From Rahnella bruchi (GTDB taxonomy: Bacteria; Pseudomonadota; Gammaproteobacteria; Enterobacterales; Enterobacteriaceae): DNA of 64,000 nt. Positions 4,403 to 15,942 of this stretch are shown piece by piece; positions within the stretch are counted from its first letter, which is position 1; each line of letters opens with the position of its first letter. Made by a program: the position numbers and the translations under genes. The stretch lies in the NCBI RefSeq assembly GCF_003614975.1, contig NZ_QZWI01000008.1, forward strand, positions 124,001 to 188,000, read 5' to 3'. Below the pieces are notes generated by a model. It had not been told where the DNA came from, did no database searches, and saw nothing but the letters and a program-made list of their open reading frames with translations.

Positions 4403-4813
4403 TTAACTTCTCAGTTCCCCTGCCGCCTCCGGCTGAAACAACAATTCCAGCACGGTGATGTGGCTTTCCTCGCCATTCGGCATTTCCCACGTGATGCTTC
4501 CACCTACGCGCAGTCCAAGCAAAGCCGCTCCCAGCGGGGCCATCACAGACAGCTGCTCGTTGCTGTCTTTCAGCGCAGCCGGATAGACCAGCGTGCGGAT
4601 GTGTTCTTCGCCTTCTTTACCTTCAGTAAAGCGAACCTTGCTGTTCATCGTAACCACGTCGGCCGGGATTTGCTCGGGAGGCAAAATCTCAGCGCGATCC
4701 AACTCTTCATTCAGTGCGTCGGCGACCGGGCTGCTCGCAAACGCCGGTTGCGCCAGCAGTGTGTCCAGGCGTTCTGCGTCAAGTTCATTGATGATCAGTG
4801 TCGGTTTACTCAT
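4403..4813 (-). CDS. rnk: Regulator of nucleoside diphosphate kinase, Rnk
   Basis: The 136-residue protein matches E. coli Rnk over its full length, with the C-terminal block [20 protein letters not shown] shared with the GreA/GreB C-terminal fold. Rnk binds RNA polymerase near the secondary channel without the Gre coiled-coil finger and influences Ndk levels and alginate or nucleotide metabolism in related bacteria. The start at 4813 is preferred over an in-frame ATG at 4825 because GGAG lies about 8 bases upstream of the former. A terminator-like hairpin lies 60 bases upstream on the same strand, so the mRNA leader may be attenuated. Confidence 0.93.
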
Positions 4814-5212: not shown

Positions 5213-5563
5213 GTGAATAACGCAATCGCATCTGTGAACGGAATCGGGCGGATTGAATTGAATGATGCCCCGGCGATAACAGAGCAAGTTTTAAAAGATA
5301 TTCAGACGATGCAAAGCGCAAAGAATATCTACACCACAGATGTTCAGTTGCAGATGTTAACGTCTCACGTAAAAGCCATGGTATTACGCTCCATAACCGG
5401 CGAGCCGTTACCTGAAGTTGAGAAAGATTTATTTGATGAAATATCTGCCGGGTCCATGCAAATGGCAGAGGAAGTGGTCAGCTGGTTCGGAAATTTACCG
5501 ATTGAGGAGGCGTATTTGCTCTCGGTACATTTTGAAGTCGCAAGAGACAACGAGCCGAAATAA
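5213..5563 (+). CDS. Stand-alone PRD-domain protein of the SFCGS/DUF4310-4312 cassette
   Basis: The 116-residue protein consists almost entirely of one PTS regulation domain (PRD). The two histidines that PRDs offer for phosphorylation are visible: H52 in LTSHVKAMVLR and H106 in YLLSVHFEVAR. It has no DNA- or RNA-binding domain, so it probably works by protein-protein contact, with phosphorylation state reporting PTS flux. Families of this type are always seen in the same cassette (recalled as the EF_0829-type TIGRFAM). The start is GTG with AAGGAGAG 12 bases upstream. The next gene follows 44 bases later. The exact role is unknown. Confidence 0.8.
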   Translation: MNNAIASVNGIGRIELNDAPAITEQVLKDIQTMQSAKNIYTTDVQLQMLTSHVKAMVLRSITGEPLPEVEKDLFDEISAGSMQMAEEVVSWFGNLPIEEAYLLSVHFEVARDNEPK

Positions 5564-5607
5564 CTTTTTTAGAATACAGCGAATTAATTAATCTGGAGAT
5601 GTGAATT

Positions 5608-5973
5608 ATGGGACAAGTATTAGTAGTGATCGGCGACCGTTTAGGTAAAGGCCAGAAAGTAGCGGCAGGCGTGGAAGCGGCTGGCGGAAAAGCCATTGTT
5701 GTCCCAGGTATGGCAGCGGATATGAAACTCGGCGACGTGATGAAAGCAGAAGGTGCCAGCTTAGGTATTTCCTTCTGTGGCAGTGGCGGCGCAGGTGCGA
5801 TTACCGCACAAAACAAATATGGATATAAAGCCAAGTACGGGATGCGTTCAGTGGATGAAGGCGTCACGGCAATCAACGAAGGCTGTCTGGTATTAGGGTT
5901 CGGATTTATGGATAAAGAAGAACTGGGTCAGCGTCTGGTCGAAGCTTATAACAAGAAGTATGGTCAGGCGTAA
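5608..5973 (+). CDS. SFCGS-family glycine-rich small protein
   Basis: The 121-residue soluble protein opens with a beta-strand/Gly pattern (QVLVVIGDRLGKGQK). At residues 52-65 it carries LGISFCGSGGAGAI, the motif that names the family, with Cys57 in a tight glycine-rich loop. Small proteins with a Rossmann-like fold and a Cys after a strand resemble PTS EIIB domains, and the region also resembles DUF2620 (E. coli YhfU), with GACNTGAGA at the same place. A role as EIIB-like phosphocarrier or substrate-binding partner of the membrane proteins is inference. Its stop overlaps the next ATG by one base (TAATG), so the two are translationally coupled. Confidence 0.82.
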   Translation: MGQVLVVIGDRLGKGQKVAAGVEAAGGKAIVVPGMAADMKLGDVMKAEGASLGISFCGSGGAGAITAQNKYGYKAKYGMRSVDEGVTAINEGCLVLGFGFMDKEELGQRLVEAYNKKYGQA

Positions 5974-6272
5974 TGAAGCAGCAATTAACCACGACGGTTC
6001 GGGTTGAAGGAAAAGGCGAAAATAAGGCTGCCGCCTTTTCTTCCGCACTGAGTCAGGTTCAGAGAACGATTCTCAAATCTTCTGCCAGTAATGTCTTGCT
6101 GCGAATTGAACCGCAGGACGTCAAGGTAATAAAGGCAGAAGAGTCAGTTAAAAGAGAAAAGTTTCTGTTCTTTTTTCTGGCCAGGGAAAGAAAGACTTAT
6201 TACGTGGCGCTAGACATTATCGTCAACCTGACTGTTATTAATACGGAACAGGTAGTTTTTGTCACGAAATAA
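5973..6272 (+). CDS. DUF4312 family protein
   Basis: The 99-residue protein has an N-terminal helix (KAAAFSSALSQVQRTIL), a basic middle (VKREKFLFFFLARERKTYY) and a C-terminal strand. No signal peptide or clear membrane span is seen, though the FLFFFL stretch may insert or pack in a core. It matches the DUF4312 family, whose members sit only in this cassette as far as I recall. Start and stop coupling to its neighbours (one-base overlap upstream, 32-base gap downstream) suggests fixed stoichiometry with the SFCGS and DUF4311 proteins. Molecular function is not known. Confidence 0.78.
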   Translation: MKQQLTTTVRVEGKGENKAAAFSSALSQVQRTILKSSASNVLLRIEPQDVKVIKAEESVKREKFLFFFLARERKTYYVALDIIVNLTVINTEQVVFVTK

Positions 6273-6304
6273 AAACGTTAGCTATAAATGACAAGGATAT
6301 ACTG

Positions 6305-7081
6305 ATGTTTTTAATTATTTTATTTAAGTCGCTTATTATCGGCGGACTGGTTGGTGTGGGCGTAGGTGCGGGTGCCGCACGTATGTTCCATGCGCCTACC
6401 GTGCAAGGGATGGGGGCTTTTCGTACTCTTGGGGAATTAAACTCCTGTGAAGGCGATCCAGCTTCGCATTTCTCATTTGGTCTGGGCTTCTTCTTTAACG
6501 CCTGGGCATCTTCTGTTGCAGCAGGTTCTTTCACGCAGGACGTCGACCACCGCATCATCCCTCACTGGGCTACCGCGGCGCTGATGTTCAAAAACCGCAA
6601 TGTCGCTGAAACCATGCATGATCCGCGCAAGATGGCGATTGCCGGCGGCATCATCGGCATGATTGTGGTGGCGTTCCTTAACACCACCGCATCAGCCGTT
6701 CCTCCGGCGTTACAGGTCACCGCCATCAAAGTGCTGGTGCCTGCGGCTAACCTTCTGGTGAACACCGTTATGCCGGTGATCTTCTGGCTGGCAGCTATCG
6801 ATGCAGGACGTCGTTCCGGTTTCTGGGCCACCATCTTTGGCGGTCTGGCGCAGATGATTATGGGTAACGCCGTACCAGGTCTGGTGCTGGGTATCCTGAT
6901 CGGCAAAGGCGTCGAAGAAAGCGGCTGGAACCACGTCACCAAAGTGATGATGGCGGCGATTATCGCGCTGTTCGTCCTCAGCGGTTTCTTCCGTGGTTTC
7001 GACGTCAAACTGTTGCAGTCATTCATGCTGGATGTCCCGACATGGCTGAACGGCATTCACAATTCACTCAGCGGTAAGTAA
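6305..7081 (+). CDS. DUF4311 integral membrane protein, putative transporter subunit
   Basis: The 258-residue protein is strongly hydrophobic and glycine-rich. Apparent membrane spans lie at about residues 1-22, 118-138, 142-167, 172-200 and 215-235, and a conserved polar N-terminal segment (ARMFHAPTVQGMGAFRTLGE) may line a substrate path. It matches DUF4311. Together with the DUF4310 protein next door it looks like a two-subunit permease, comparable in layout to PTS EIIC/EIID pairs, but I cannot demonstrate homology by eye. The gap to the DUF4310 gene is only 6 bases. Confidence 0.78.
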   Translation: MFLIILFKSLIIGGLVGVGVGAGAARMFHAPTVQGMGAFRTLGELNSCEGDPASHFSFGLGFFFNAWASSVAAGSFTQDVDHRIIPHWATAALMFKNRNVAETMHDPRKMAIAGGIIGMIVVAFLNTTASAVPPALQVTAIKVLVPAANLLVNTVMPVIFWLAAIDAGRRSGFWATIFGGLAQMIMGNAVPGLVLGILIGKGVEESGWNHVTKVMMAAIIALFVLSGFFRGFDVKLLQSFMLDVPTWLNGIHNSLSGK

Positions 7082-7087
7082 GGGAGC

Positions 7088-7741
7088 ATGATAATGGAAG
7101 AACAAGCCAAACGTGGTTTCTGGTACGCCGAGTGGTCGTTCCCGATTTTTGTTGGACTGTTGTCCTCTGGCGTTTTTGCCGGGACACACATGTATTACCT
7201 GTACGGCATCGGCGCATTTAACGAAGTGGCATTTGTGTCGATGTTGCGTTCCGGCATGGATACCGGTGTGTATGGCGCAGTAGCGGCCTTCGGTGCCAGC
7301 TTCCTGTTTGCCCGCATCATCGAAGGCTCACTGGTCGGTATTCTTGATATCGGCGGTGCAATCCAGACAGGTATCGGTCTGGGGGTCCCGGCGCTGCTGC
7401 TCGGCGCAGGGATTATCTTCCCGGTGGCGAACTTCGCAGCTTCACTGGTGACCGGCCTGATCCTCGGATTAGCCGTGGGTTACCTCATCGTTCTGGCACG
7501 TAAATTCACCATCAACCAGAGCAACTCGACCTACGGCGCTGACGTGATGATGGGTGCGGGTAATGCATCTGGCCGTTTCCTCGGGCCGTTGATTATCCTG
7601 TCAGCAATGGCGGCATCGATTCCTATCGGTCTGGGATCGTTGCTCGGCGCACTGGGTTTTTATCTGTGGCAGAAGCCAATCACCGGTGGGGCGATCCTCG
7701 GTGCCATGCTCCTGGGTGCCATCTTCCCGGTTTCACTGTAA
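7088..7741 (+). CDS. DUF4310 integral membrane protein, putative transporter subunit
   Basis: The 217-residue protein has a short cytoplasmic start (MIMEEQAKRGFWYAEW) and about five or six glycine/alanine-rich membrane segments. It contains the motif GADVMMGAGNASGRFLGPLI around residues 151-170, which could be a substrate or subunit contact. It matches DUF4310. The start may instead be the ATG at 7094, since GGGAGC lies close to 7088. It ends the transport half of the cassette. An 87-base gap with a hairpin separates it from the enzyme half. Confidence 0.78.
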   Translation: MIMEEQAKRGFWYAEWSFPIFVGLLSSGVFAGTHMYYLYGIGAFNEVAFVSMLRSGMDTGVYGAVAAFGASFLFARIIEGSLVGILDIGGAIQTGIGLGVPALLLGAGIIFPVANFAASLVTGLILGLAVGYLIVLARKFTINQSNSTYGADVMMGAGNASGRFLGPLIILSAMAASIPIGLGSLLGALGFYLWQKPITGGAILGAMLLGAIFPVSL

Positions 7742-7782
7742 GAACAGCAGTGCAGTAGCACAGCAGTACATAAGCAGTATAA

Positions 7783-7809
7783 GGGCGTCGGGAACACTCC
7801 TGACGCCCG
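7783..7809 (+). promoter_or_regulatory. Intercistronic hairpin between transport and enzyme genes
   Basis: GGGCGTC-GGG / CCT-GACGCCC arms enclose a short loop in the 87-base gap. There is no T tract, so it is more likely an mRNA stability or processing element than a terminator. It could set different levels for the upstream and downstream genes. Confidence 0.55.
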
Positions 7810-7828
7810 AGATTATGGAGAACGTCGT

Positions 7829-8962
7829 ATGTATGACTTAATCATCCGAAGGGCAAAGCGCACAGACGGCAGCCTGACTGATATCGCAATTCAGGACGGC
7901 AAATTCGCCGCCTTTGGTACCCTGGCAGCCGATGCGACTGCCCGCCAGACTCTTGATCTTCAGGGCAAGGTTTACGCCAGCGCTGGCTGGATCGACTCCC
8001 ACGTTCACTGTTACCCCAAATCGCCGATTTATCATGACGATGCCGACCTGATTGGCGTGGCCTGTGGTGTCACCACCGTGGCGGATGCCGGAAGTACCGG
8101 CGCGAATGATGTCGACGACTTCTATCAGATAACCCGTACGGCGAAAACCAACGTCTACGCGTTTCTCAATATCGCCCGCACCGGCATTGTCACGCAGAAC
8201 GAACTGGCGGATATGTCGCAGATCGACAAAGTCGGTGTGCGTGACGCCATCGCGCGAAATCCCGGTTTTATCATTGGTATCAAAGCGCGCATGAGCAGCA
8301 GCGTGGTCGGCCAGAACGGCATCAAGCCACTGGTGCGGGCCAAAGAAATTCAGCAGGAAAACGACGACCTGCCGCTGATGGTGCATATCGGCAACAACCC
8401 GCCGAATCTCGATGAAATTGCGGATTTACTGACATCGGGCGACATCATCACTCACTGCTATAACGGCAAACCGAACCGCATTCTCTCGCCACAAGGCGTG
8501 CTGCGCGATTCCATTAAACGTGCGCTGAGCCGCGGCGTGCTGCTGGATGTCGGTCACGGCACCGCGAGTTTCAGTTTTGAAGTGGCGGAGCTGGCTATCA
8601 GACAAGGCATTTTGCCGCACACCATCAGCTCCGATATTTACTGCCGTAACCGTATGAACGGGCCGGTGCATAGCCTGGCAACGGTGATGTCGAAATTCTT
8701 TAGCGTGGGTATGACGCTGACACAAGTGATTGATTGTGTCACGTCTCAGGCGGCTGACGCGCTGCGCCTGCCTGCCAAAGGCCGGCTGGAAGTGGGCGCT
8801 GACGCCGATCTGACCCTGTTCGAGCAGCGTTTTGCGCCGCAGGTGTTTGTTGATTCCGAAGGACAGTCCGTGAAGGGCGAAAGTTTGCTGGTGCCTCTGG
8901 CCGCTGTGGTCGCGGGCATCACCCTGTTAACTGAAGAAGGGAAATCTGCTCATGTCTTCTGA
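7829..8962 (+). CDS. Amidohydrolase/deacetylase family metallohydrolase
   Basis: The 377-residue TIM-barrel hydrolase has the metal ligands of the amidohydrolase superfamily: H58 and H60 in SHVHCY, candidate carboxylated Lys152 (GIKARMS), H186 (MVHIGNN), H209 (ITHCYNG) and catalytic D269 (SSDIYCR). N- and C-terminal beta-sandwich segments flank the barrel (residues 1-50 and about 320-377). It belongs to the EF_0837-type family, variously labelled adenine deaminase, dihydroorotase-like or deacetylase. In this setting removal of an N- or O-acyl group from an amino sugar acid before ammonia elimination is a reasonable inference. It overlaps the PLP enzyme gene by 11 bases. Confidence 0.88.
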   Translation: MYDLIIRRAKRTDGSLTDIAIQDGKFAAFGTLAADATARQTLDLQGKVYASAGWIDSHVHCYPKSPIYHDDADLIGVACGVTTVADAGSTGANDVDDFYQITRTAKTNVYAFLNIARTGIVTQNELADMSQIDKVGVRDAIARNPGFIIGIKARMSSSVVGQNGIKPLVRAKEIQQENDDLPLMVHIGNNPPNLDEIADLLTSGDIITHCYNGKPNRILSPQGVLRDSIKRALSRGVLLDVGHGTASFSFEVAELAIRQGILPHTISSDIYCRNRMNGPVHSLATVMSKFFSVGMTLTQVIDCVTSQAADALRLPAKGRLEVGADADLTLFEQRFAPQVFVDSEGQSVKGESLLVPLAAVVAGITLLTEEGKSAHVF

Positions 8963-10079
8963 ACAATCTTTGTATGAAAAGTACCAGTTAAAACAAGTGA
9001 TTAATGCTTCAGGCCGCATGACGATTCTGGGTGTGTCGACACCGCGTGAAGAAGTGGCTGCGGTGGTGAACACCGGACTGAATCATTTCTTTGAGATGAA
9101 AGATCTGGTGAACAAAACCGGCGCTTACATCGCTAAACTGCTGAACGTCGAAAACGCGGTGGTCGTTTCCTGCGCTTCCGCCGGGATCGCGCAGTCAGTT
9201 GCGGCAGTGATCGTCAAAGACGACGCCTGGTTGCGGGAAAACCTGCACGCCGCGCCGCTGGAAGTTCCGCACGATATTGTGTTGCCAAAAGGCCATAACG
9301 TGAACTTCGGCGCGCCGGTAGCGACGATGGTCACGATGGGCGGCGGCAAAGTGGTGGAAGCCGGTTACGCCAACGAATGTTCTGCCGCGCAGCTTGCTGC
9401 CTGCATCACGCCGCGCACGGCGGCCATTCTTTACATCAAATCGCATCACAGCGTGCAAAAAAGCATTCTGTCGGTTGAGGAAGCCGCCGAAGTGGCGCGG
9501 GCGAATAATCTGCCGCTGATTGTCGATGCTGCCGCAGAAGAAGACCTGACCTGCTATTACGAGATGGGCGCGGATCTGGTGATTTACAGCGGCGCGAAAG
9601 CCATCGAAGGGCCGACCAGTGGTCTGGTGCTTGGCAAAAAACAGTACGTGGAATGGGTGAAACTGCAATCGGGCGGTATTGGCCGTGCGATGAAAGTCGG
9701 TAAGGAAGGCATTCTTGGTCTGACGCAGGCTATCGAAAGCTACATCACGTTGCCTAAAACGACCGGGCAGGAAATGGTCGACAAGATGACGCCATTTATC
9801 GCCAGTCTGAATGAAATCAACGGCGTAACAGGCCGCGTGGTCTGGGACAGCGCCGGACGCGATATCGCGCGTACGGAAATTACTTTTGATGAAGCGGTAC
9901 TTGGCTGGAAAACCAAGGCCATTGTAGACGCCATGAAAAACGGCGACATCGCCATTTATTTCCGTGGCTACCGCGCCAACGAAGGCAAGATTGAAGTCGA
10001 TGTGCGCAGCGTGACACCGCCGCAACTCGCCATCGTTGCAGAACGTTTTAAACAACTTTTTAGTGGAGAGAAAGCATGA
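8952..10079 (+). CDS. DgaE-family PLP-dependent ammonia-lyase
   Basis: The 375-residue protein is a fold-type I PLP enzyme of the SelA-like subgroup. The internal aldimine lysine is K216 in IYSGAKAIEGP, preceded by the cofactor aspartate in LIVDAAAEED (D192). The closest characterised member I know is Salmonella DgaE, which converts D-glucosaminate 6-phosphate to 2-keto-3-deoxygluconate 6-phosphate and ammonia. The adjacent aldolase gene supports that product. The ATG lies inside the end of the amidohydrolase gene, and the stop overlaps the aldolase start by four bases (ATGA), so all three enzymes are translationally coupled. The exact substrate is inferred from context. Confidence 0.88.
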   Translation: MSSEQSLYEKYQLKQVINASGRMTILGVSTPREEVAAVVNTGLNHFFEMKDLVNKTGAYIAKLLNVENAVVVSCASAGIAQSVAAVIVKDDAWLRENLHAAPLEVPHDIVLPKGHNVNFGAPVATMVTMGGGKVVEAGYANECSAAQLAACITPRTAAILYIKSHHSVQKSILSVEEAAEVARANNLPLIVDAAAEEDLTCYYEMGADLVIYSGAKAIEGPTSGLVLGKKQYVEWVKLQSGGIGRAMKVGKEGILGLTQAIESYITLPKTTGQEMVDKMTPFIASLNEINGVTGRVVWDSAGRDIARTEITFDEAVLGWKTKAIVDAMKNGDIAIYFRGYRANEGKIEVDVRSVTPPQLAIVAERFKQLFSGEKA

Positions 10080-10816
10080 AGCTGACCCCGAATTTTTACC
10101 GTGATCGTGTGTGCCTGAATGTGCTGGCGGGTTCGAAAGACAATGCCCGTGACATCTATGAAGCAGCAGAAGGTCATGTTCTGGTGGGTGTGCTTTCCAA
10201 AAATTATCCGGACGTCGCGAGCGCGGTGGCGGACATGAAAGAGTATGCCGCACTGATTGAAAACGCGTTGTCAGTAGGCCTTGGCGCGGGCGATCCGCGT
10301 CAGTCGCTGATGGTCAGCCAGATTTCTGCACAGGTTCAGCCGCAGCACGTGAATCAGGTCTTTACCGGTGTGGGCACCAGCCGTGGAATGCTTGGGCAAA
10401 ACGACAGTGTGGTCAACGGTCTGATTTCACCGACCGGTAAAGTCGGCTTTGTGAAAATCAATACCGGGCCGCTGAGCTCTGCCTCTGCTGACGCCATTGT
10501 GCCGGTAGAAACCGCCATTGCGCTGCTCAAAGACATGGGCGGCAGCTCGGTGAAGTATTTCCCGATGGGCGGTCTGAAAACCCGTGACGAGTTCGCTGCG
10601 GTAGCCCGTGCCTGCGCGGAACAGGATTTCTGGCTGGAGCCGACCGGCGGTATCGATTTGGAAAACTTCGAGCCGATTATGGAAATCGCGCTGGCGGCCG
10701 GTGTGACCAAAATCATCCCGCATATCTACAGCTCAATCATCGACAGCGCATCGGGCAACACCCGTCCTGAAGATGTGAAAACCCTGCTGGCCAGCGTCAA
10801 AAAGCTGGTGGGCTGA
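10076..10816 (+). CDS. dagF: 2-Dehydro-3-deoxy-phosphogluconate aldolase, DgaF/EF_0839 type
   Basis: The 246-residue TIM-barrel protein differs from the Eda-type aldolase and matches the family found beside DgaE. It would split 2-keto-3-deoxy-6-phosphogluconate into pyruvate and glyceraldehyde 3-phosphate. Conserved strands include VGFVKINTGPLS (about 121-132), GSSVKYFPMGGLK (about 153-165, holding the likely Schiff-base lysine) and FWLEPTGGIDLENF (about 182-195). It overlaps the upstream ammonia-lyase gene by four bases. No strong intrinsic terminator follows. An ACCCTG/CAGGGT inverted repeat around 10862-10895 is the only candidate. Confidence 0.87.
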   Translation: MKLTPNFYRDRVCLNVLAGSKDNARDIYEAAEGHVLVGVLSKNYPDVASAVADMKEYAALIENALSVGLGAGDPRQSLMVSQISAQVQPQHVNQVFTGVGTSRGMLGQNDSVVNGLISPTGKVGFVKINTGPLSSASADAIVPVETAIALLKDMGGSSVKYFPMGGLKTRDEFAAVARACAEQDFWLEPTGGIDLENFEPIMEIALAAGVTKIIPHIYSSIIDSASGNTRPEDVKTLLASVKKLVG

Positions 10817-10936
10817 AGGTTCTGACCTTTCCTGCGCGGTAAGCCGTCTGCGCGGTTAAACACCCTGTATGCCACAGTCACTGAGCGGATGCAGGGTTCT
10901 CTCGTTTGTCTGATATCCCAAATTCTGAGGAAATGT

Positions 10937-12136
10937 ATGAGAAACTGGTTTCTGATTTCAGGTTTAACCTCCGCGATGCTGGCAGTTTCTGCCATGCCGC
11001 TTTATGCAGCAGAAAAAACAATGACTTCGACGACTCCACATTTTGCTTACGTCGGCACCTACAACCCGAACGGGGAAGGTGTCTACCGCTTTAAATTCGA
11101 TCCGAAAACCGGCGCGCTGAGTGATAAAACACTCGCCAGCCAGTTGCCCAATCAGGCGCAGATGGTGCTCAGCCACGATGGAAAAACCCTGTTTATCGGC
11201 AGTGAAATAGATAATTACAACGGCGGCAAACATGGCGCTGTGGCGGCCTACCGTATTGCGCCAGAAGACGGCAGCCTGACGCTGATGAATCAGGTGGATT
11301 CACAGGGCGCAGGGCCGGTGTATTTGTCGCTGACGCCAAAAGGTGATCATCTGCTGGTGGCGAACTACATCAGCGGCGTGGTGGCAATCTTCCCGGTCGA
11401 TGCCAGCGGAAAATTGAGTGAAGCCAGCAACAGTCAGCAGGATTCCGGTCCGGCGGGTGCAGGCAAACCGGCAGCGGCGGCGGAAGGCAGTTTTGCCATC
11501 AGCGATCACAACGGGCCGCACGCGCATATGGTTGCCACCGATCCTTCCGGCAAATTCGTGTTCTCCACCGATCTGGGGCTGGACCGGATTTACCAGTGGA
11601 AGCTCAATAGTGAAACAGGCGCGCTGGAAGCCAACGTTCCGCCATTTATTAAAGCCTCTTCGCAAGGCGCCGGACCGCGCCATTTTGTATTCCATCCAAA
11701 CGGCAAAGTGGTTTTCCTGATCAACGAAGAAGCCTCGACGCTGACCAGTTATCGTTTTGACGCCGCAAAAGGCACGCTAACGGAGTTGCATAGCCTGTCA
11801 TCGCTGCCAGCCGGTTTCAAAGGCACCAACTTTGCCGCAGGCATTGTGCTGAGCAAAGACGGCAAGCATCTGTATGTGGCGAACCGCCTGCATAACAGCA
11901 TCGCGCAGATTAATGTGACCGGCGAAGGCGCGATGACCTGGAGTGAAGAAACCTGGACGCGCGGCGACTATCCAAGAACGCTCACTTTGTCACCGGATGG
12001 CAAATATATTTACGCATTGAATCAACGAAGCGATAACATCACCAGATTCAAGGTATCTGGCGAAAACGGCAAACTGTCATTCGTTGATGATTATGTGGCT
12101 GTGGGCAGCCCGTCACAGATGGTGATTGTGCCCTGA
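10937..12136 (+). CDS. Secreted lactonase, 7-bladed beta-propeller (YbhE/Pgl-like)
   Basis: The likely start is 10937, where TGAGG sits 6 bases upstream. A longer in-frame extension to 10889 has no such site. The 399-residue product begins with a signal peptide (MRNWFLIS... cleaved after LYA at about residue 24), then a lactonase-family propeller with repeats such as VGTYNPNGEGVYRFKFD, FVFHPNGK and LTLSPDGKYIYALNQ. E. coli Pgl (YbhE), the 6-phosphogluconolactonase, has no signal peptide, so this protein should act on an unphosphorylated lactone in the periplasm. Placed between the cassette enzymes and their regulator, it may open a sugar-acid lactone before uptake. That link is inference. Confidence 0.87.
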   Translation: MRNWFLISGLTSAMLAVSAMPLYAAEKTMTSTTPHFAYVGTYNPNGEGVYRFKFDPKTGALSDKTLASQLPNQAQMVLSHDGKTLFIGSEIDNYNGGKHGAVAAYRIAPEDGSLTLMNQVDSQGAGPVYLSLTPKGDHLLVANYISGVVAIFPVDASGKLSEASNSQQDSGPAGAGKPAAAAEGSFAISDHNGPHAHMVATDPSGKFVFSTDLGLDRIYQWKLNSETGALEANVPPFIKASSQGAGPRHFVFHPNGKVVFLINEEASTLTSYRFDAAKGTLTELHSLSSLPAGFKGTNFAAGIVLSKDGKHLYVANRLHNSIAQINVTGEGAMTWSEETWTRGDYPRTLTLSPDGKYIYALNQRSDNITRFKVSGENGKLSFVDDYVAVGSPSQMVIVP

Positions 12137-12225
12137 CAGCGTCCTGCATCAGAACCAAACCCTTTGCGTAGAAACCTCATCCGGTGACTGCGCAGAGGGC
12201 GTATCCGCAATAATATGGAAGAACA

Positions 12226-14145
12226 ATGGTGAGATTTCCCAATCAACGTCTGGCGCAATTGTTTGATGCGCTGCAAACCGAAACCCTTCCTCAGGATGAG
12301 CTGGCAAAACGCCTGTCGGTCTCAACGCGCACAGTGCGTGCGGATATCACTGCGCTGAACGAAATTATCGCTGACTTCGGCGCGACATTTGTTCACAGTC
12401 GTGGCAGCGGGTATCAGCTGCGCATTGACGATCAGACGCTTTTCTCAACGTTACAGCAGTCAACGCAACGCAAGCCAAATCCGACGCCGCGCACTGCCGC
12501 TGAGCGGGTGAAAACGTTGCTGATCCGCTTTTTGACCTCAGCTTTTTCATTAAAGCTGGAAGATCTGGCCGATGAATGGTTTGTCAGCCGGGGAACCCTG
12601 CAAAATGATATGGCTGAGGTGAGGGAGCATCTGGCTCGCTATCACCTGAATATCGAAACCAAGCCGCGCTACGGCATGAAACTCTTCGGGGCGGAGCTGG
12701 CTATCCGCGCCTGTCTGACCGATCTGCTGTTTCAGCTTGATGCGGAAGAGCAGGCTAATCCGCTGCTGAAGGCGGAAAGTCTGGAGCCGGAAGCGCTGGT
12801 GCCGCTGACGCGGCTGATGCATCAGGTACTGACGCAGTCTTCTATTCAGCTGACGGATGAAGGCGAGCAATATCTGATCCTTTACTGCGCAGTGGCTATC
12901 AAACGCATTACCGGCGGATATCCTCTGACGGATTTTGATGCCGAAGACGGGGATCCGGCAGTGAAACAGGTTTCCGTGCGGCTGGCGGCCGAGCTGAGGA
13001 ATCTGGTCGGCAAAGAAATTCCGGCCTCTGAAGAAGCTTATCTGCGGGTGAACATCGCCGCGCGTCGCGTGCAGCAAATTTTACCGACGGATATTAATGC
13101 CGACGACGACGAATCGCTGGTCGATTACATTCTGTCGTATATCAACGCGCACTATAACTATGATTTACAAGGTGATAAGCAGCTGCGCGCCGACCTGCTT
13201 ACGCATATCAAGACCATGATTACGCGGGTGAAGTATCAGATAAACATCCCTAATCCGCTGCTGAATAACATCAAACAGCATTACCCGATGGCGTATGACG
13301 TCACACTGGCGGCAGTCTCCAGCTGGGGAAAGTACACGCCGTATACGCTGAGTGAAAACGAGATTGGCTTTCTGGTGCTGCATATCGGCGTCGGGCTCGA
13401 GCGGCATTACAACATCGGCTACCAGCGCCATCCGCAGGTGATGCTGGTGTGTGACACCGGTAATTCAACCATCCGTATGATCCAGGCGCAGATTAACCGC
13501 AAGTACCCGCAACTGGTGATGAAGCAGGTGGTTTCGCTACGCGATTACGAGCAGCTGGAGCATATCGACGAAGATTTTATTATCTCCAATGCGCGCATTA
13601 CCGAGAAAAATAAGCCGGTAGTGGTGCTGTCGCCGTTTCCGACCGAATACCAGATGGAACAGCTCGGCAAGCTGGTGCTGGTCGACCGAACGCGTCCTTA
13701 TATGCTGGAAAAATTCTTCGACGAAAAACACTTCATGATCGTCAACGAGCCGATGACGCAGGCTGAATTGTTCCGCCACGTGTGCTCGCAGCTTGAAGAA
13801 GAAGGGTATGTCGATCAGGCGTTTTATCCGTCAGTGGTGGAGCGCGAGGAGATAGTCTCGACCATGTTGGGCGAAGGGATTGCGCTGCCGCACTCGCTGG
13901 GTCTGCTGGCGAAGAAAACCGTGGTGATCACGCTGCTCTCACCGCAGGGTATTCCCTGGGGCGAAGGGGAAACGGCGCACGTGATATTCCTGCTGGCGAT
14001 CAGTAAGGCGGATTACGAAGAGGCGATGGCGATTTACGATTTGTTTGTGACGTTTGTGCGGGACCGCTCAATGAGCCGTTTGCTGAGCAGTGAAAACTTT
14101 GAGAGCTTCAAGGCCATTGCTATAGACTGCTTAAGCCGCATTTAG
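12226..14145 (+). CDS. Multidomain PRD regulator (HTH-PRD-PRD-EIIB-EIIA), BglG/MtlR class
   Basis: The 639-residue protein reads: HTH_11 (about 1-65, with RLSVSTRTVRADI), a second HTH (about 90-160), PRD1 (about 190-290), PRD2 (about 295-400, with H327 and H386 in VLHIGVGLER), a GatB-like EIIB domain (about 402-490, Cys409 in VCDTGN) and a mannitol/fructose-type EIIA domain (about 495-639, His556 in GIALPHS). It is a DNA-binding activator whose activity is set by PTS phosphorylation. In PRD1 the position of the second histidine reads LILYCAVAIKR (Y220-C221), so one regulatory phosphosite appears lost. It lies downstream of the cassette and faces ptsO. It probably controls the 5.2-10.8 kb operon. 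Confidence 0.9.
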   Translation: MVRFPNQRLAQLFDALQTETLPQDELAKRLSVSTRTVRADITALNEIIADFGATFVHSRGSGYQLRIDDQTLFSTLQQSTQRKPNPTPRTAAERVKTLLIRFLTSAFSLKLEDLADEWFVSRGTLQNDMAEVREHLARYHLNIETKPRYGMKLFGAELAIRACLTDLLFQLDAEEQANPLLKAESLEPEALVPLTRLMHQVLTQSSIQLTDEGEQYLILYCAVAIKRITGGYPLTDFDAEDGDPAVKQVSVRLAAELRNLVGKEIPASEEAYLRVNIAARRVQQILPTDINADDDESLVDYILSYINAHYNYDLQGDKQLRADLLTHIKTMITRVKYQINIPNPLLNNIKQHYPMAYDVTLAAVSSWGKYTPYTLSENEIGFLVLHIGVGLERHYNIGYQRHPQVMLVCDTGNSTIRMIQAQINRKYPQLVMKQVVSLRDYEQLEHIDEDFIISNARITEKNKPVVVLSPFPTEYQMEQLGKLVLVDRTRPYMLEKFFDEKHFMIVNEPMTQAELFRHVCSQLEEEGYVDQAFYPSVVEREEIVSTMLGEGIALPHSLGLLAKKTVVITLLSPQGIPWGEGETAHVIFLLAISKADYEEAMAIYDLFVTFVRDRSMSRLLSSENFESFKAIAIDCLSRI

Positions 14146-14170: not shown

Positions 14171-14443
14171 TCAGTCTTCGTCAAAACCTGAATTAATCAG
14201 ATTTACGACGGCGGTGAGAGCCTGTTCTTCATCAGGCCCTGTGGCTTCGATCTCGATTTTCTGACCTTTCGGGGAATCGAGCATCAGCAGCGCGATCACG
14301 CTGCTGGCTTCTGCTTCAATGCCTGTGCCGTTACGCAGCATCACTTCTGACTCAAAGCTCTGCACCAGTTCAAACAACTTCATCGCCGGACGGGCATGCA
14401 TCCCTAACCGGTTTTTGATTTCTACCGTTTGTTTTACCGTCAT
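14171..14443 (-). CDS. ptsO: Phosphocarrier NPr of the nitrogen PTS
   Basis: The 90-residue HPr-like protein has the phosphorylation site H16 in GMHARPA. It relays phosphate from EI-Ntr (PtsP, not in the window) to PtsN and tunes potassium transport, LPS synthesis and other targets. The ATG overlaps the rapZ stop by four bases, as usual for the rpoN operon. In E. coli the next gene would be yrbL. Here the PRD regulator of the accessory cassette converges on it. Confidence 0.96.
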
Positions 14444-15294
14444 GATTTACGTTTTTCCAGCGTACGATGGCGGGATTGCACATTCTTCCCGCGGGAACGG
14501 AAATAGTCGGCCAGTTGCTCTGCGATATACACCGAACGGTGTTTACCGCCGGTACAGCCAATGGCGACGGTCAGATAGCTGCGGTTATTGGTTTCCAGCA
14601 TCGGCAGCCACTGTTCGAGATAACTGCGGGTCTGGTAGATAAAGTTATGTACTTCGGTATGACGGTCGAGGAACGCCGCTACCGGTTTGTCGAGGCCGGT
14701 CATCGGACGCAGTTTCGGATCCCAGTGCGGGTTCGGCAGGAAACGCACGTCGAAGACATAATCCGCATCAATCGGAATGCCGTGTTTAAAACCAAAGGAT
14801 TCGAAGACCATCGTCAGTTCACGTTCACGTTTACCCAGCAGACGGGTACGCAGCATTTCTGCCAGCTCATGAACGGACATTTCGGACGTGTCGATGATGA
14901 GATCGGCGGAAGAACGCAGAGGCTCGAGCAGGTCGGCTTCTTCATCAATGGCACTTTCGAGAGAAAGGTTTTTGCTGGAAAGCGGGTGCAGACGACGGGT
15001 GTCGCTGTAGCGGCGGATCAGCGTATTGCGGTCAGCATCTAGAAACAGCAGCTGCGGAGAGAAGCTCTCAGGCAACTGGGACATCGCGTATTCATAAACT
15101 TCCGGGGTTTCCGGCATGTTACGCACGTCGATGCTGACGGCCGCTGACGTATTACGTTCAACGAGGGTTTGGGCAAGCTGCGGCAATAACACCACCGGCA
15201 GGTTATCCACACAGTAAAAACCCATGTCTTCTAATGCCCTTAGGGCAACCGACTTCCCGGAACCGGAACGGCCGCTGACAATCATCAGCACCAT
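14440..15294 (-). CDS. rapZ: RNase adapter RapZ
   Basis: The 284-residue protein has a Walker A motif GRSGSGKS at residues 8-15 and the C-terminal block [17 protein letters not shown] that binds the GlcN6P signal and sRNA. RapZ delivers the sRNA GlmZ to RNase E, so that glmS expression follows glucosamine 6-phosphate supply. GlmY sequesters it when the sugar phosphate is scarce. Length and sequence match E. coli closely. It overlaps ptsO and follows ptsN after a 67-base gap with a small hairpin (about 15328-15350). Confidence 0.97.
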
Positions 15295-15361
15295 GGTGTC
15301 ACTCCCCTGGCATTCAGTGTTCAGAATTCATTTTCCCGGCACCGTACCGGGAATCAGCAAT

Positions 15362-15832
15362 TTATTCGTTTTCAGTCATTATCTGGAACAGTTCTTCGTC
15401 ACTTTGCGCGCCTCGCAGGCGGCGGCACACTGTTTTATCAGCTAATTTCTTAGCCACCAAAGATAATGTATGTAAATGGGTTTTACATTGATCCGCCGGC
15501 ACCAGCAAGGCAAAAAGTAAGTCTACCGGCTGATTATCGATGGCATCAAAAGCGATAGGTTGTTCCAGCTGAATGAACACCCCGACTGCACGTAAAGTAT
15601 CTTCTTCCAGCTTACCGTGCGGGATGGCGATCCCGGCACCGATCCCGGTGCTGCCCATACGTTCACGGGTCAAAATGGCGTCGAAAATCACCTGTGGCGA
15701 CAAATTCAGTTGCTTAGCGGCCAGTTCGCTGATGATTTCCAGTGCGCGTTTTTTGCTGGCGCAATGAACGCCGCTTTTGGTGCATTCGGCATTGAGCACC
15801 GACGTTAATTGCATTGCTATATCGTTGATCAT
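15362..15832 (-). CDS. ptsN: Nitrogen-PTS EIIA protein PtsN
   Basis: The 156-residue EIIA-Ntr has its phosphorylatable histidine at about residue 72 in GIAIPHGKL. In E. coli it controls K+ uptake (TrkA, KdpD) and other targets according to its phosphorylation state. I prefer the ATG at 15832 because it aligns best with the E. coli N-terminus. A GTG four codons upstream (15844) is also in frame. It sits between hpf and rapZ in the conserved rpoN operon. Confidence 0.95.
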   Translation of the reverse strand: MINDIAMQLTSVLNAECTKSGVHCASKKRALEIISELAAKQLNLSPQVIFDAILTRERMGSTGIGAGIAIPHGKLEEDTLRAVGVFIQLEQPIAFDAIDNQPVDLLFALLVPADQCKTHLHTLSLVAKKLADKTVCRRLRGAQSDEELFQIMTENE

Positions 15833-15942
15833 GTCATCTTTCACTTTTGCGCTGTTTCACCCTTAAAGCTATATCGGCTCGTTTCCCGAAGGTCACAAGC
15901 CGATGCCCGAAGGTTTGTAGCACAGGGTTGGCTACATGAATG

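Follow-up and report, generated by a model that had tools for sequence, protein, structure and literature searches.

The window, i.e. the whole 64,000-nucleotide stretch of Rahnella bruchi contig NZ_QZWI01000008.1 that was analyzed, carries ten successive genes on the forward strand, and position and strand were confirmed for all of them. Every named gene scored above a curated NCBIfam or Pfam cut-off (NCBIfam scores are given here as bits/cut-off). The first gene (5213..5563, GTG start) encodes a stand-alone single PRD protein of the EF_0829/AHA_3910 family (TIGR03582, 130.7/69.35), which stayed just under the Pfam cut-off (21.6 against 23). It is followed by genes for an SFCGS protein with RpiB/LacAB fold (5608..5973; PF14272; TIGR03577, 218.9/141.1), a DUF4312 protein of the EF_0831 family (5973..6272; PF14189; TIGR03578, 121/89.65), and two membrane proteins proposed as transporter subunits, DUF4311 (6305..7081; PF14188; TIGR03580, 498/301.1) and DUF4310 (7088..7741; PF14187; TIGR03579, 389.2/215.45). 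Three enzyme genes come next, encoding an amidohydrolase/deacetylase of the EF_0837 family, proposed as an N-deacetylase (7829..8962; TIGR03583, 548.6/432.15), a DgaE-family PLP ammonia lyase (8952..10079; TIGR01437, 583.1/385.3), and a DgaF-type KDPG aldolase (10076..10816; TIGR03581, 399.2/222.4). Further downstream lie a 7-bladed lactonase (10889..12136; PF10282) whose N-terminus looks signal-peptide-like by eye, and an MtlR-like regulator (12226..14145; Pfam) consisting of HTH, Mga, two PRDs, a Cys-containing linker, and a C-terminal EIIA2. Spacings between the ten genes were +44, −1, +32, +6, +87, −11, −4, +72, and +89 nt, the negative values confirming that the overlapping junctions noted in the initial annotation are real. 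Its same-strand run also stood; its count of seven genes plus two was corrected to eight close genes plus two. Scanning the locus for sigma-70 promoters and terminators gave no excess over shuffles.

The window genes are the EF_0829-EF_0839/AHA_3910-3917 cassette, already modeled in NCBIfam as "hypothetical equivalogs" (TIGR03577-TIGR03583 and TIGR01437), with the same genes in the same order and no essential difference. The initial annotation had pointed to this kinship with Enterococcus, and it was borne out by all eight models scoring over their curated cut-offs. The Salmonella version runs from STM4440 to STM4447 (locus tags read: 4440-4443 and 4447), and the papers available for searching included no study of the function of the cassette. 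Relatives of a cassette membrane protein are encoded on at least 541 stretches of one genome collection. Among the closest 80 of these, nearly all from Enterobacterales, a gene-neighborhood comparison recovered all eight genes in identical order in 78; the exceptions were a locus with a broken SFCGS gene (L044) and one cut by a contig end (L080). Conservation of this order is far beyond chance. DUF4311, DUF4310, and SFCGS occurred together in 54 of 119 related genomes, including one with broken copies (G699); separate occurrence, named beforehand as the refuting outcome, was not found for these three families in the 119 genomes, bar a single decayed remnant.

Occurrence of the cassette in more than one phylum was likewise upheld, with copies in Enterobacterales, on a Bartonella plasmid, and in Enterococcus. 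The cassette or its DUF4311 was found in Yersinia, Serratia, Klebsiella, Salmonella, Enterococcus, and Bartonella (on a plasmid), and DUF4311 also in Aeromonas caviae. DUF4311 shared 67-88% identity with five other sequences compared, that of Enterococcus being the lowest. The Firmicute sample consisted of two loci, one of them labeled as a Listeria phage. A search for viral carriage returned 279 pattern matches and 0 relatives; matches in phage records are probably bacterial DNA, since some of these records lack annotation, one is flagged UNVERIFIED, and two are Salmonella contigs. Two weak DUF4311 matches (L009; G777, above cut-off) were read and both fell on DjlA-like genes, and the one of two weak DUF4310 matches in another class that was read lay, by eye, among branched-chain ABC permeases.

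Solved relatives exist for the deacetylase (8wzy, 2ics), the lyase (7lc0/7lce), and the aldolase (3lm7, 3m0z). For the Salmonella lyase, the PLP lysine, His162/163, and the phosphate-site arginines Arg301/332/346 have been described (PMC9529869), and the window lyase keeps the equivalents of all of them: K216 (the PLP lysine), H166, R307, R338, and R352 were present in 85/85 aligned sequences and H165 in 84/85. A phosphorylated 2-amino sugar acid, as initially predicted, is therefore the likely intermediate, judging from these catalytic and phosphate-site residues. Against the DgaE equivalog model NF047797 the lyase reached 354.1 bits, under the cut-off of 600, which sets it apart from the Salmonella Dga system, and the sugar may therefore differ. 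The aldolase passed the KDPG aldolase DgaF model NF047796 (389.9 bits, cut-off 300) in addition to TIGR03581. Lyase and aldolase families, a proposed KDPG intermediate, and a PTS link are common to the cassette and the Salmonella D-glucosaminate pathway DgaABCD-EF, which as described contains no deacetylase, in contrast to the window cassette (PMC9529869).

His52 and His106 of the small PRD protein, for which 3nuf is a solved relative, were conserved in 92/92 aligned sequences. In the regulator, Cys409 was found in 81/83 and His556 in 83/83 aligned sequences; this set includes two Firmicute regulators in which the aligned His556 means little, since Pfam finds no EIIA2 there. Both the window regulator and that of Bartonella end in an EIIA domain. 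The two Firmicute copies further differ from the window copy in having the regulator in front of the cassette. The lactonase was present in 40 of the 80 relative loci.

The SFCGS protein is an RpiB-fold protein, a recognition that is new here. Its AF2 model (pLDDT 84.8) retrieved RpiB/LacAB structures at all Foldseek ranks 1-12 (prob 1.00, TMq 0.57-0.71, best E 1.5e-3), and hhalign against five RpiB sequences gave 91.7% (E 7.8e-7, 0/100 shuffles). The SFCGS profile also scored 22.3 bits (E 1.4e-4) on one RpiB gene, short of its cut-off of 27.3. An assignment as EIIB by fold was discarded, a lactose EIIB chain appearing only at Foldseek rank 37; SFCGS does have an invariant Cys, as an EIIB-type phosphocysteine protein would. 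An H99N mutant RpiB structure was among the fold-search matches.

Both membrane proteins remained apart from known carriers. No EIIC family of Pfam matched DUF4310 or DUF4311, and profile comparisons of the two retrieved neither an EIIC nor another known transporter. ManY, ManZ, MtlA, and UlaA profiles were not set apart from other membrane proteins when compared with those of the cassette. The cassette differs here from Dga of Salmonella, whose uptake Miller et al. (2013) are said to have assigned to a mannose-family PTS. A hint of kinship between DUF4310 and the glucitol EIIC SrlA (E 0.012) disappeared with 12-sequence profiles, and SrlA/SrlE profile comparisons scored no better than shuffles. 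The DUF4311 structure model was poor (pLDDT 62.9) and a fold search with it found no match; polar residues of DUF4311, including H29, E44, D51, H55, D79, and H82, were invariant in 75 sequences. DUF4312, whose window copy has neither His nor Cys, gave no useful match to solved structures.

We consider it about an even chance (roughly 0.5) that the locus encodes a complete catabolic route for an N-acetylglucosaminate-type compound, an N-acylated 2-amino-2-deoxy aldonic acid. The exported lactonase, where present, would open an aldonolactone outside the inner membrane, and the carrier would consist of DUF4311 and DUF4310 together with DUF4312 and the RpiB-like SFCGS protein. On entry or afterwards the substrate would receive a phosphate at C6, most likely in a PTS-linked step, and the amidohydrolase would remove the acyl group, as its family suggests. 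Given its conserved catalytic and phosphate-site residues, the DgaE-type lyase would then eliminate ammonia to yield a 2-keto-3-deoxy sugar acid 6-phosphate, which the DgaF-type aldolase, placed by its family cut-off, would cleave into pyruvate and glyceraldehyde-3-phosphate. The invariant histidines suggest that expression, and perhaps transport, may be controlled by the PTS, which would phosphorylate the PRD/EIIA regulator and the small PRD protein. The pathway part of this explanation is probable; PTS-linked phosphorylating transport has somewhat less than even odds. The explanation as a whole is supported by the retained lyase residues, the aldolase score over the KDPG cut-off, the signal-peptide-like lactonase N-terminus, the invariant PRD histidines, and the coincidence of the membrane pair with SFCGS among the 119 genomes. 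It is weakened by the lack of any transporter match for DUF4310/DUF4311, the poor DUF4311 model, the lyase score below the DgaE equivalog cut-off, and the two Firmicute regulators without EIIA2. The cassette is widespread and appears to import and degrade an acetylated amino-sugar acid by means of a carrier that matches no known type.

Neither a kinase nor an ordinary EIIC is present in the window copy, as initially stated, and no kinase gene was annotated or read within the Salmonella, Klebsiella, and Bartonella cassettes either. The Bartonella plasmid copy is directly followed by an HPr-Enzyme I fusion; in Aminobacter, a glucitol-PTS operon similarly ends in a ptsP gene. These features favor the PTS-linked reading. 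The E. faecalis copy counts against it: a KDG-kinase-like gene lies shortly after its aldolase region, and it also carries a LacE-type EIIC and a MupG-like gene (the aldolase reading frame is split in the record examined). The initial argument that the DUF proteins are the likely phosphorylating transporter for want of a kinase is accordingly weaker than proposed; they match no EIIC family, and the SFCGS fold is of the RpiB rather than the EIIB type. Phosphorylation of the substrate by the cassette membrane proteins is a plausible hypothesis. It is also conceivable, with somewhat less than even odds, that the membrane proteins are a secondary transporter: the acid would enter unphosphorylated and be deacetylated and deaminated to KDG, from which a KDG kinase, encoded in the cassette in E. 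faecalis and presumably elsewhere in other genomes, would form KDPG, the PTS parts serving regulation only. Besides the E. faecalis gene, which is related to KDG kinases, and the lack of resemblance to any EIIC, this agrees with the marine-bacterial ong pathway of oxidative chitin use, which proceeds without prior phosphorylation (PMC9537276). The ong pathway shares an N-acetyl aldonate, deacetylation, deamination, and KDPG with the proposed cassette route but relies on a transporter of the SSS family, a deaminase of fold-type III, and the kinase KdgK (PMC9537276). Against secondary transport stand the kinase-free cassettes, the HPr-Enzyme I fusion beside the Bartonella copy, and the phosphate-site arginines in 85/85 lyases, although the distant enzyme 8t7j likewise has arginines at these positions.

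The SFCGS protein might instead be an active RpiB/LacAB-type isomerase or epimerase acting on a sugar phosphate, with no part in transport. Fold, homology, and Cys57, invariant in 71/71 sequences and located in the same loop as the RpiB catalytic Cys, point in this direction. The position aligned to the ring-opening His of RpiB (His99 of E. coli), N90 in the window protein, is Asn in 64 sequences, Ala in 3, and Lys, Glu, Gln, and Gly in one each, with His in 0/71. Moreover, its length of 121 aa falls short of the 147-179 aa of five RpiB reading frames, conversion of an aldonic acid to KDPG needs no isomerization, and the gene lies among those of the membrane proteins, away from the enzyme genes, all of which makes this role unlikely. 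Uptake of GlcNAc-aldonic acid released by the cell's own chitin LPMO is disfavored as quite improbable: the chemistry (N-acetyl, C1-oxidized) would fit, DUF4311 occurs in A. caviae, NCBIfam names cite AHA_ genes, and a study of A. rivuli and A. bestiarum reported distant or no OngB/OngC homologues (PMC11653859), but the cassette was found in 11/22 LPMO_10-positive and 43/97 LPMO-negative genomes (119 genomes, Fisher p = 0.64) and the window genome has no LPMO_10 match.

No blastn match to DUF4311-DUF4310 DNA was found in E. coli. From profile comparisons, which are new here, the trio of single PRD, RpiB-like Cys protein, and membrane protein appears to recur in the E. coli yhfSTUVWXYZ operon as YhfY, YhfU, and YhfT, clearly for the PRD protein and tentatively for the other two. 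The small PRD protein aligned with YhfY at 94% in hhalign. SFCGS and YhfU reached 35.6% (0/60 shuffles, reversed 6.7%) after 1.5% in a first attempt. DUF4310 and the C-terminal half of YhfT gave 50-60% with 13 YhfT sequences (E about 1e-4; 0/60 and 0/40 shuffles) and 5% with 6 or 7. In 30 random subsets (9 of 13), DUF4310-YhfT scored 22.7-41.5 versus at most 20.5 for other families, 13 family profiles being compared, DUF4310 itself, YhfT, and DUF4311 included; the T2N-T2C score, an overlap artefact, was left out. This similarity is seen profile to profile only, single YhfT sequences ranking 2 to 59 of 61 membrane proteins against DUF4310. A by-eye motif linking DUF4311 to the N-terminal half of YhfT was unsupported by profile comparison. 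In both systems the trio neighbors a phosphotriesterase-type hydrolase and PLP enzymes; the yhf operon differs in its one membrane protein of 434 aa, the absence of DUF4312, and other enzymes (phosphopentomutase-like YhfW, PLP protein YhfX).

A more speculative and rather unlikely extension is a PTS-like carrier of a new class built from different folds, with yhf as second member. The stand-alone PRD with its invariant histidines would take the place of EIIA, the RpiB-fold protein with its invariant Cys in an anion-binding loop that of EIIB, and DUF4311 plus DUF4310 (YhfT in E. coli) that of EIIC, phosphate passing from HPr via PRD His and RpiB-like Cys to the incoming sugar acid. The RpiB fold of SFCGS and the tentative yhf link join two orphan operons in a single question open to testing, namely whether PRD and RpiB-like proteins are phosphate carriers to a new type of permease. 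No notable CRP site was seen upstream of the window cassette, where the best core had 3 mismatches (mean of 3.2 in shuffled upstream regions of relatives). A CRP-like core with at most 2 mismatches was observed upstream in 33 of the 80 relatives.

On the + strand of the window, eight genes with short gaps or overlaps (5213-10816; PRD, SFCGS, DUF4312, DUF4311, DUF4310, deacetylase, DgaE-family lyase and KDPG-type aldolase) are followed by a lactonase gene (10889-12136) and a regulator gene (12226-14145). All ten were identified by Pfam and NCBIfam, confirming the gene content given in the initial annotation. The genome measures 5.5 Mb and its DUF4311 protein is identical to that of two Rahnella species. 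By recognition of the translations, we take the flanks to be an rnk-like gene on one side and the npr/rapZ/ptsN group on the other. The genes so named (nitrogen PTS; 14171-15844) adjoin the cassette end. The Klebsiella and Salmonella cassettes are sited elsewhere, between cybC and a RelBE-type pair next to nrdG.

The cassette itself is a known, uncharacterised unit. NCBIfam models exist for each of the eight core genes; seven take their names from EF_0829 to EF_0839 (six of these from AHA_3910 to AHA_3917 as well) and are classed as hypothetical equivalogs, and the eighth is the DgaE family. Curators thus already recognise the cassette, with no function stated for it. On a Salmonella contig its genes bear tags of the STM4440 series, of which 4440-4443 and 4447 were observed. 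No study of cassette function was found in the literature searched, and the mentions found were single genes named in expression or annotation tables, or other genes. STM4441-2 is among the unknown genes listed with crp in PMC11000858. A Rahnella aceris paper (PMC9015054) enters a 'DgaE family' lyase as selA among the genes of selenium metabolism; the name is probably an error for a gene of this type (cf. 8952-10079 in the window).

For conservation analysis, 84,980 species genomes of one collection were scanned for DUF4311 relatives, giving at least 541 stretches, the best 80 of which were kept. Among these 80, the eight core genes lie in order, on one strand and within 9 kb in 78; the exceptions are a copy with a broken SFCGS gene (L044) and one stopping at a contig edge (L080). 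The lactonase is present in 40/80 and the regulator follows in 78/80 of these best relatives. The same order was found in a Bartonella plasmid copy, a contig labelled as Listeria phage, five genomes from three further families of the same taxonomic order (L213-L216, L218; aldolase cut by the stretch end in four of the five) and Enterococcus faecalis, with extra genes and, in this record, the aldolase frame split in two. The kinship to EF_0829-EF_0839 given in the initial annotation is supported by model names and gene order alike. Cassette pieces also occur in records filed as phages (OR850993, OR845273, OR848318, PQ520413, OR846593), probably as bacterial contamination.

Genes occurring apart, a check named in the initial annotation, were sought in 119 genomes drawn evenly from the window organism's family and searched for DUF4311 (matches in 55), DUF4310 (54) and SFCGS (55). 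All three coincide in the same 54 genomes, including one with a decayed cassette in fragments, some with stops (G699:C1). The 55th DUF4311 match (G777) falls on a DjlA-like gene and was rejected. The 55th SFCGS genome has a decayed remnant, keeping PRD, SFCGS and DUF4312 beside cybC, the remainder being lost (G714:C7; L103:8529-9554). Small PRDs were found apart from the cassette in 6/17 fetched neighbourhoods (L206, L208, L209, L210, L212, L217), all in genomes of a single further family (f3) within the order. These are YhfY-type, with no other cassette or yhf gene within the 10-kb stretches.

Among the enzymes, the aldolase passes its NCBIfam model, and the lactonase N-terminus was judged by eye to be signal-peptide-like, as in the Klebsiella, Ewingella and Sodalis copies. 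Dihydroorotase and adenine deaminase are reportedly wrong names for the group of the cassette deacetylase; 8wzy and 2ics, which it resembles, were deposited under them. The lyase scored 354 bits on the NCBIfam true-DgaE model, below the cut-off of 600. According to PMC9529869, His162 and His163 lie near the active site of the Salmonella enzyme, and manual docking placed the substrate phosphate beside Arg301, Arg332 and Arg346. At the corresponding places and the PLP lysine, the window lyase has His165, His166, Lys216, Arg307, Arg338 and Arg352, of which all are invariant in 85 aligned lyases (window included) except His165 (84/85). As 8t7j, a more distant enzyme, also has arginines at these places, they constitute good but non-exclusive evidence for a phosphorylated substrate. 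Taken together, these features fit a pathway in which an N-acyl 2-amino aldonate is taken up as the acid or the lactone and broken down to pyruvate and glyceraldehyde-3-phosphate, and the pathway logic of the initial annotation is mostly sound.

In the ong pathway, GlcNAc-aldonic acid is deacetylated without phosphorylation; PMC9537276 names the phosphorylated order as an alternative and finds against it for the authors' strain. The cassette looks like this alternative order. Use for products of the organism's own LPMO would predict co-occurrence, which was absent (cassette in 11/22 LPMO-positive and 43/97 LPMO-negative of the 119 genomes; p = 0.64, uncorrected for relatedness and genome size), so that this use is not supported.

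Searching solved structures by sequence gave no useful match for SFCGS. The NCBIfam RpiB model matches the window protein weakly (E 0.0059), and the SFCGS Pfam model matches RpiB genes weakly, below cut-off (L104, RpiB by Pfam, and L105). An AlphaFold2 model (pLDDT 84.8) was compared with the PDB using Foldseek: the top twelve hits were all chains of RpiB or LacAB, each with probability 1.00, query TM-scores of 0.57-0.71 and modest E-values (1.5e-3 and above); a lactose EIIB chain ranked 37. Profile comparison with five RpiB sequences gave 91.7% at E 7.8e-7, a score that none of 100 shuffles reached, and aligned Cys57 with the RpiB cysteine. In RpiB, the loop holding this cysteine is an anion-binding loop. 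All 71 distinct SFCGS sequences keep Cys57 and the CGSGGAG loop, and the position of the RpiB ring-opening His is Asn in 64/71 and His in 0/71. These results make SFCGS a relative of RpiB, one in which ordinary isomerase chemistry has probably been lost and the loop cysteine kept.

In the E. coli yhfSTUVWXYZ operon, YhfY is likewise a protein with a single PRD, YhfU (DUF2620) has 117 aa, and YhfT is a membrane protein of 434 aa. Judged by sequence, the cassette PRD and YhfY are firmly linked (hhalign 94%, E 8.5e-8); His52, Arg59 and Glu76 are invariant in 12/12 small PRDs of both systems together. The second PRD His of the cassette is not kept in YhfY. The other two links are tentative. YhfU carries a loop cysteine, within the motif C-x-[TS]-G (13/13), and matches RpiB weakly (8.7%, 0/100 shuffles); against SFCGS, a first attempt gave 1.5% (3/100 shuffles) and broader alignments 35.6% (E 3.9e-4, 0/60 shuffles; reversed 6.7%). 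Comparing DUF4310 with the C-terminal half of YhfT gave 50-60% at E about 1e-4, and no shuffle scored as high (0/60 and 0/40); of 13 membrane-family profiles, YhfT was the best non-self match, also when a reduced YhfT set brought the figure down to 5%. The likeness is absent with single sequences, and DUF4311 did not match YhfT. The trio was seen together in 12/13 yhf loci, the L099 stretch being too short to show the PRD. Titles and abstracts of the literature searched gave no function for these yhf genes, and neither the RpiB identity of SFCGS nor the shared trio was found in that literature.

The initial annotation took the DUF proteins for a phosphorylating transporter, which is possible. 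A PTS-linked carrier would suit enzymes that appear to need a 6-phosphate and the lack of a kinase in the window, Salmonella, Klebsiella and Bartonella copies; the E. faecalis copy (L012) argues against it, since it includes a LacE-family EIIC, a MupG-like protein and a KDG-kinase-related enzyme of the PfkB type. The window copy has no kinase or ordinary EIIC, as the initial annotation stated, and the E. faecalis genes weaken the argument drawn from this. Both PRD histidines are invariant (92/92), favouring PTS linkage, whereas both Firmicute regulators are without EIIA2. Against a carrier of this class also speak the SFCGS fold, which is not EIIB-like, and Pfam and profile comparisons, which found no EIIC relationship. 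A 671-aa HPr-Enzyme I fusion follows the Bartonella plasmid copy, a point in its favour, and could serve the regulator only; as an alphaproteobacterial parallel, an Aminobacter plasmid glucitol-PTS operon ends with a ptsP gene (L158:3710-3737). Weighing these points, we give the phosphorylating reading a probability of about one in three.

In E. faecalis, the LacE-family EIIC, a small hypothetical protein and the MupG-like 6-phospho-glycosidase lie inside the cassette (L012:10620-13355), and the kinase gene (L012:16325-17335) begins about 10 bp or less from the aldolase region; together these extra genes hint that the substrate may take a disaccharide form. The split aldolase frame (L012:15573-16315), just before the kinase gene, consists of two open pieces of 163 and 84 aa, the second being assigned to the aldolase from its place and size.
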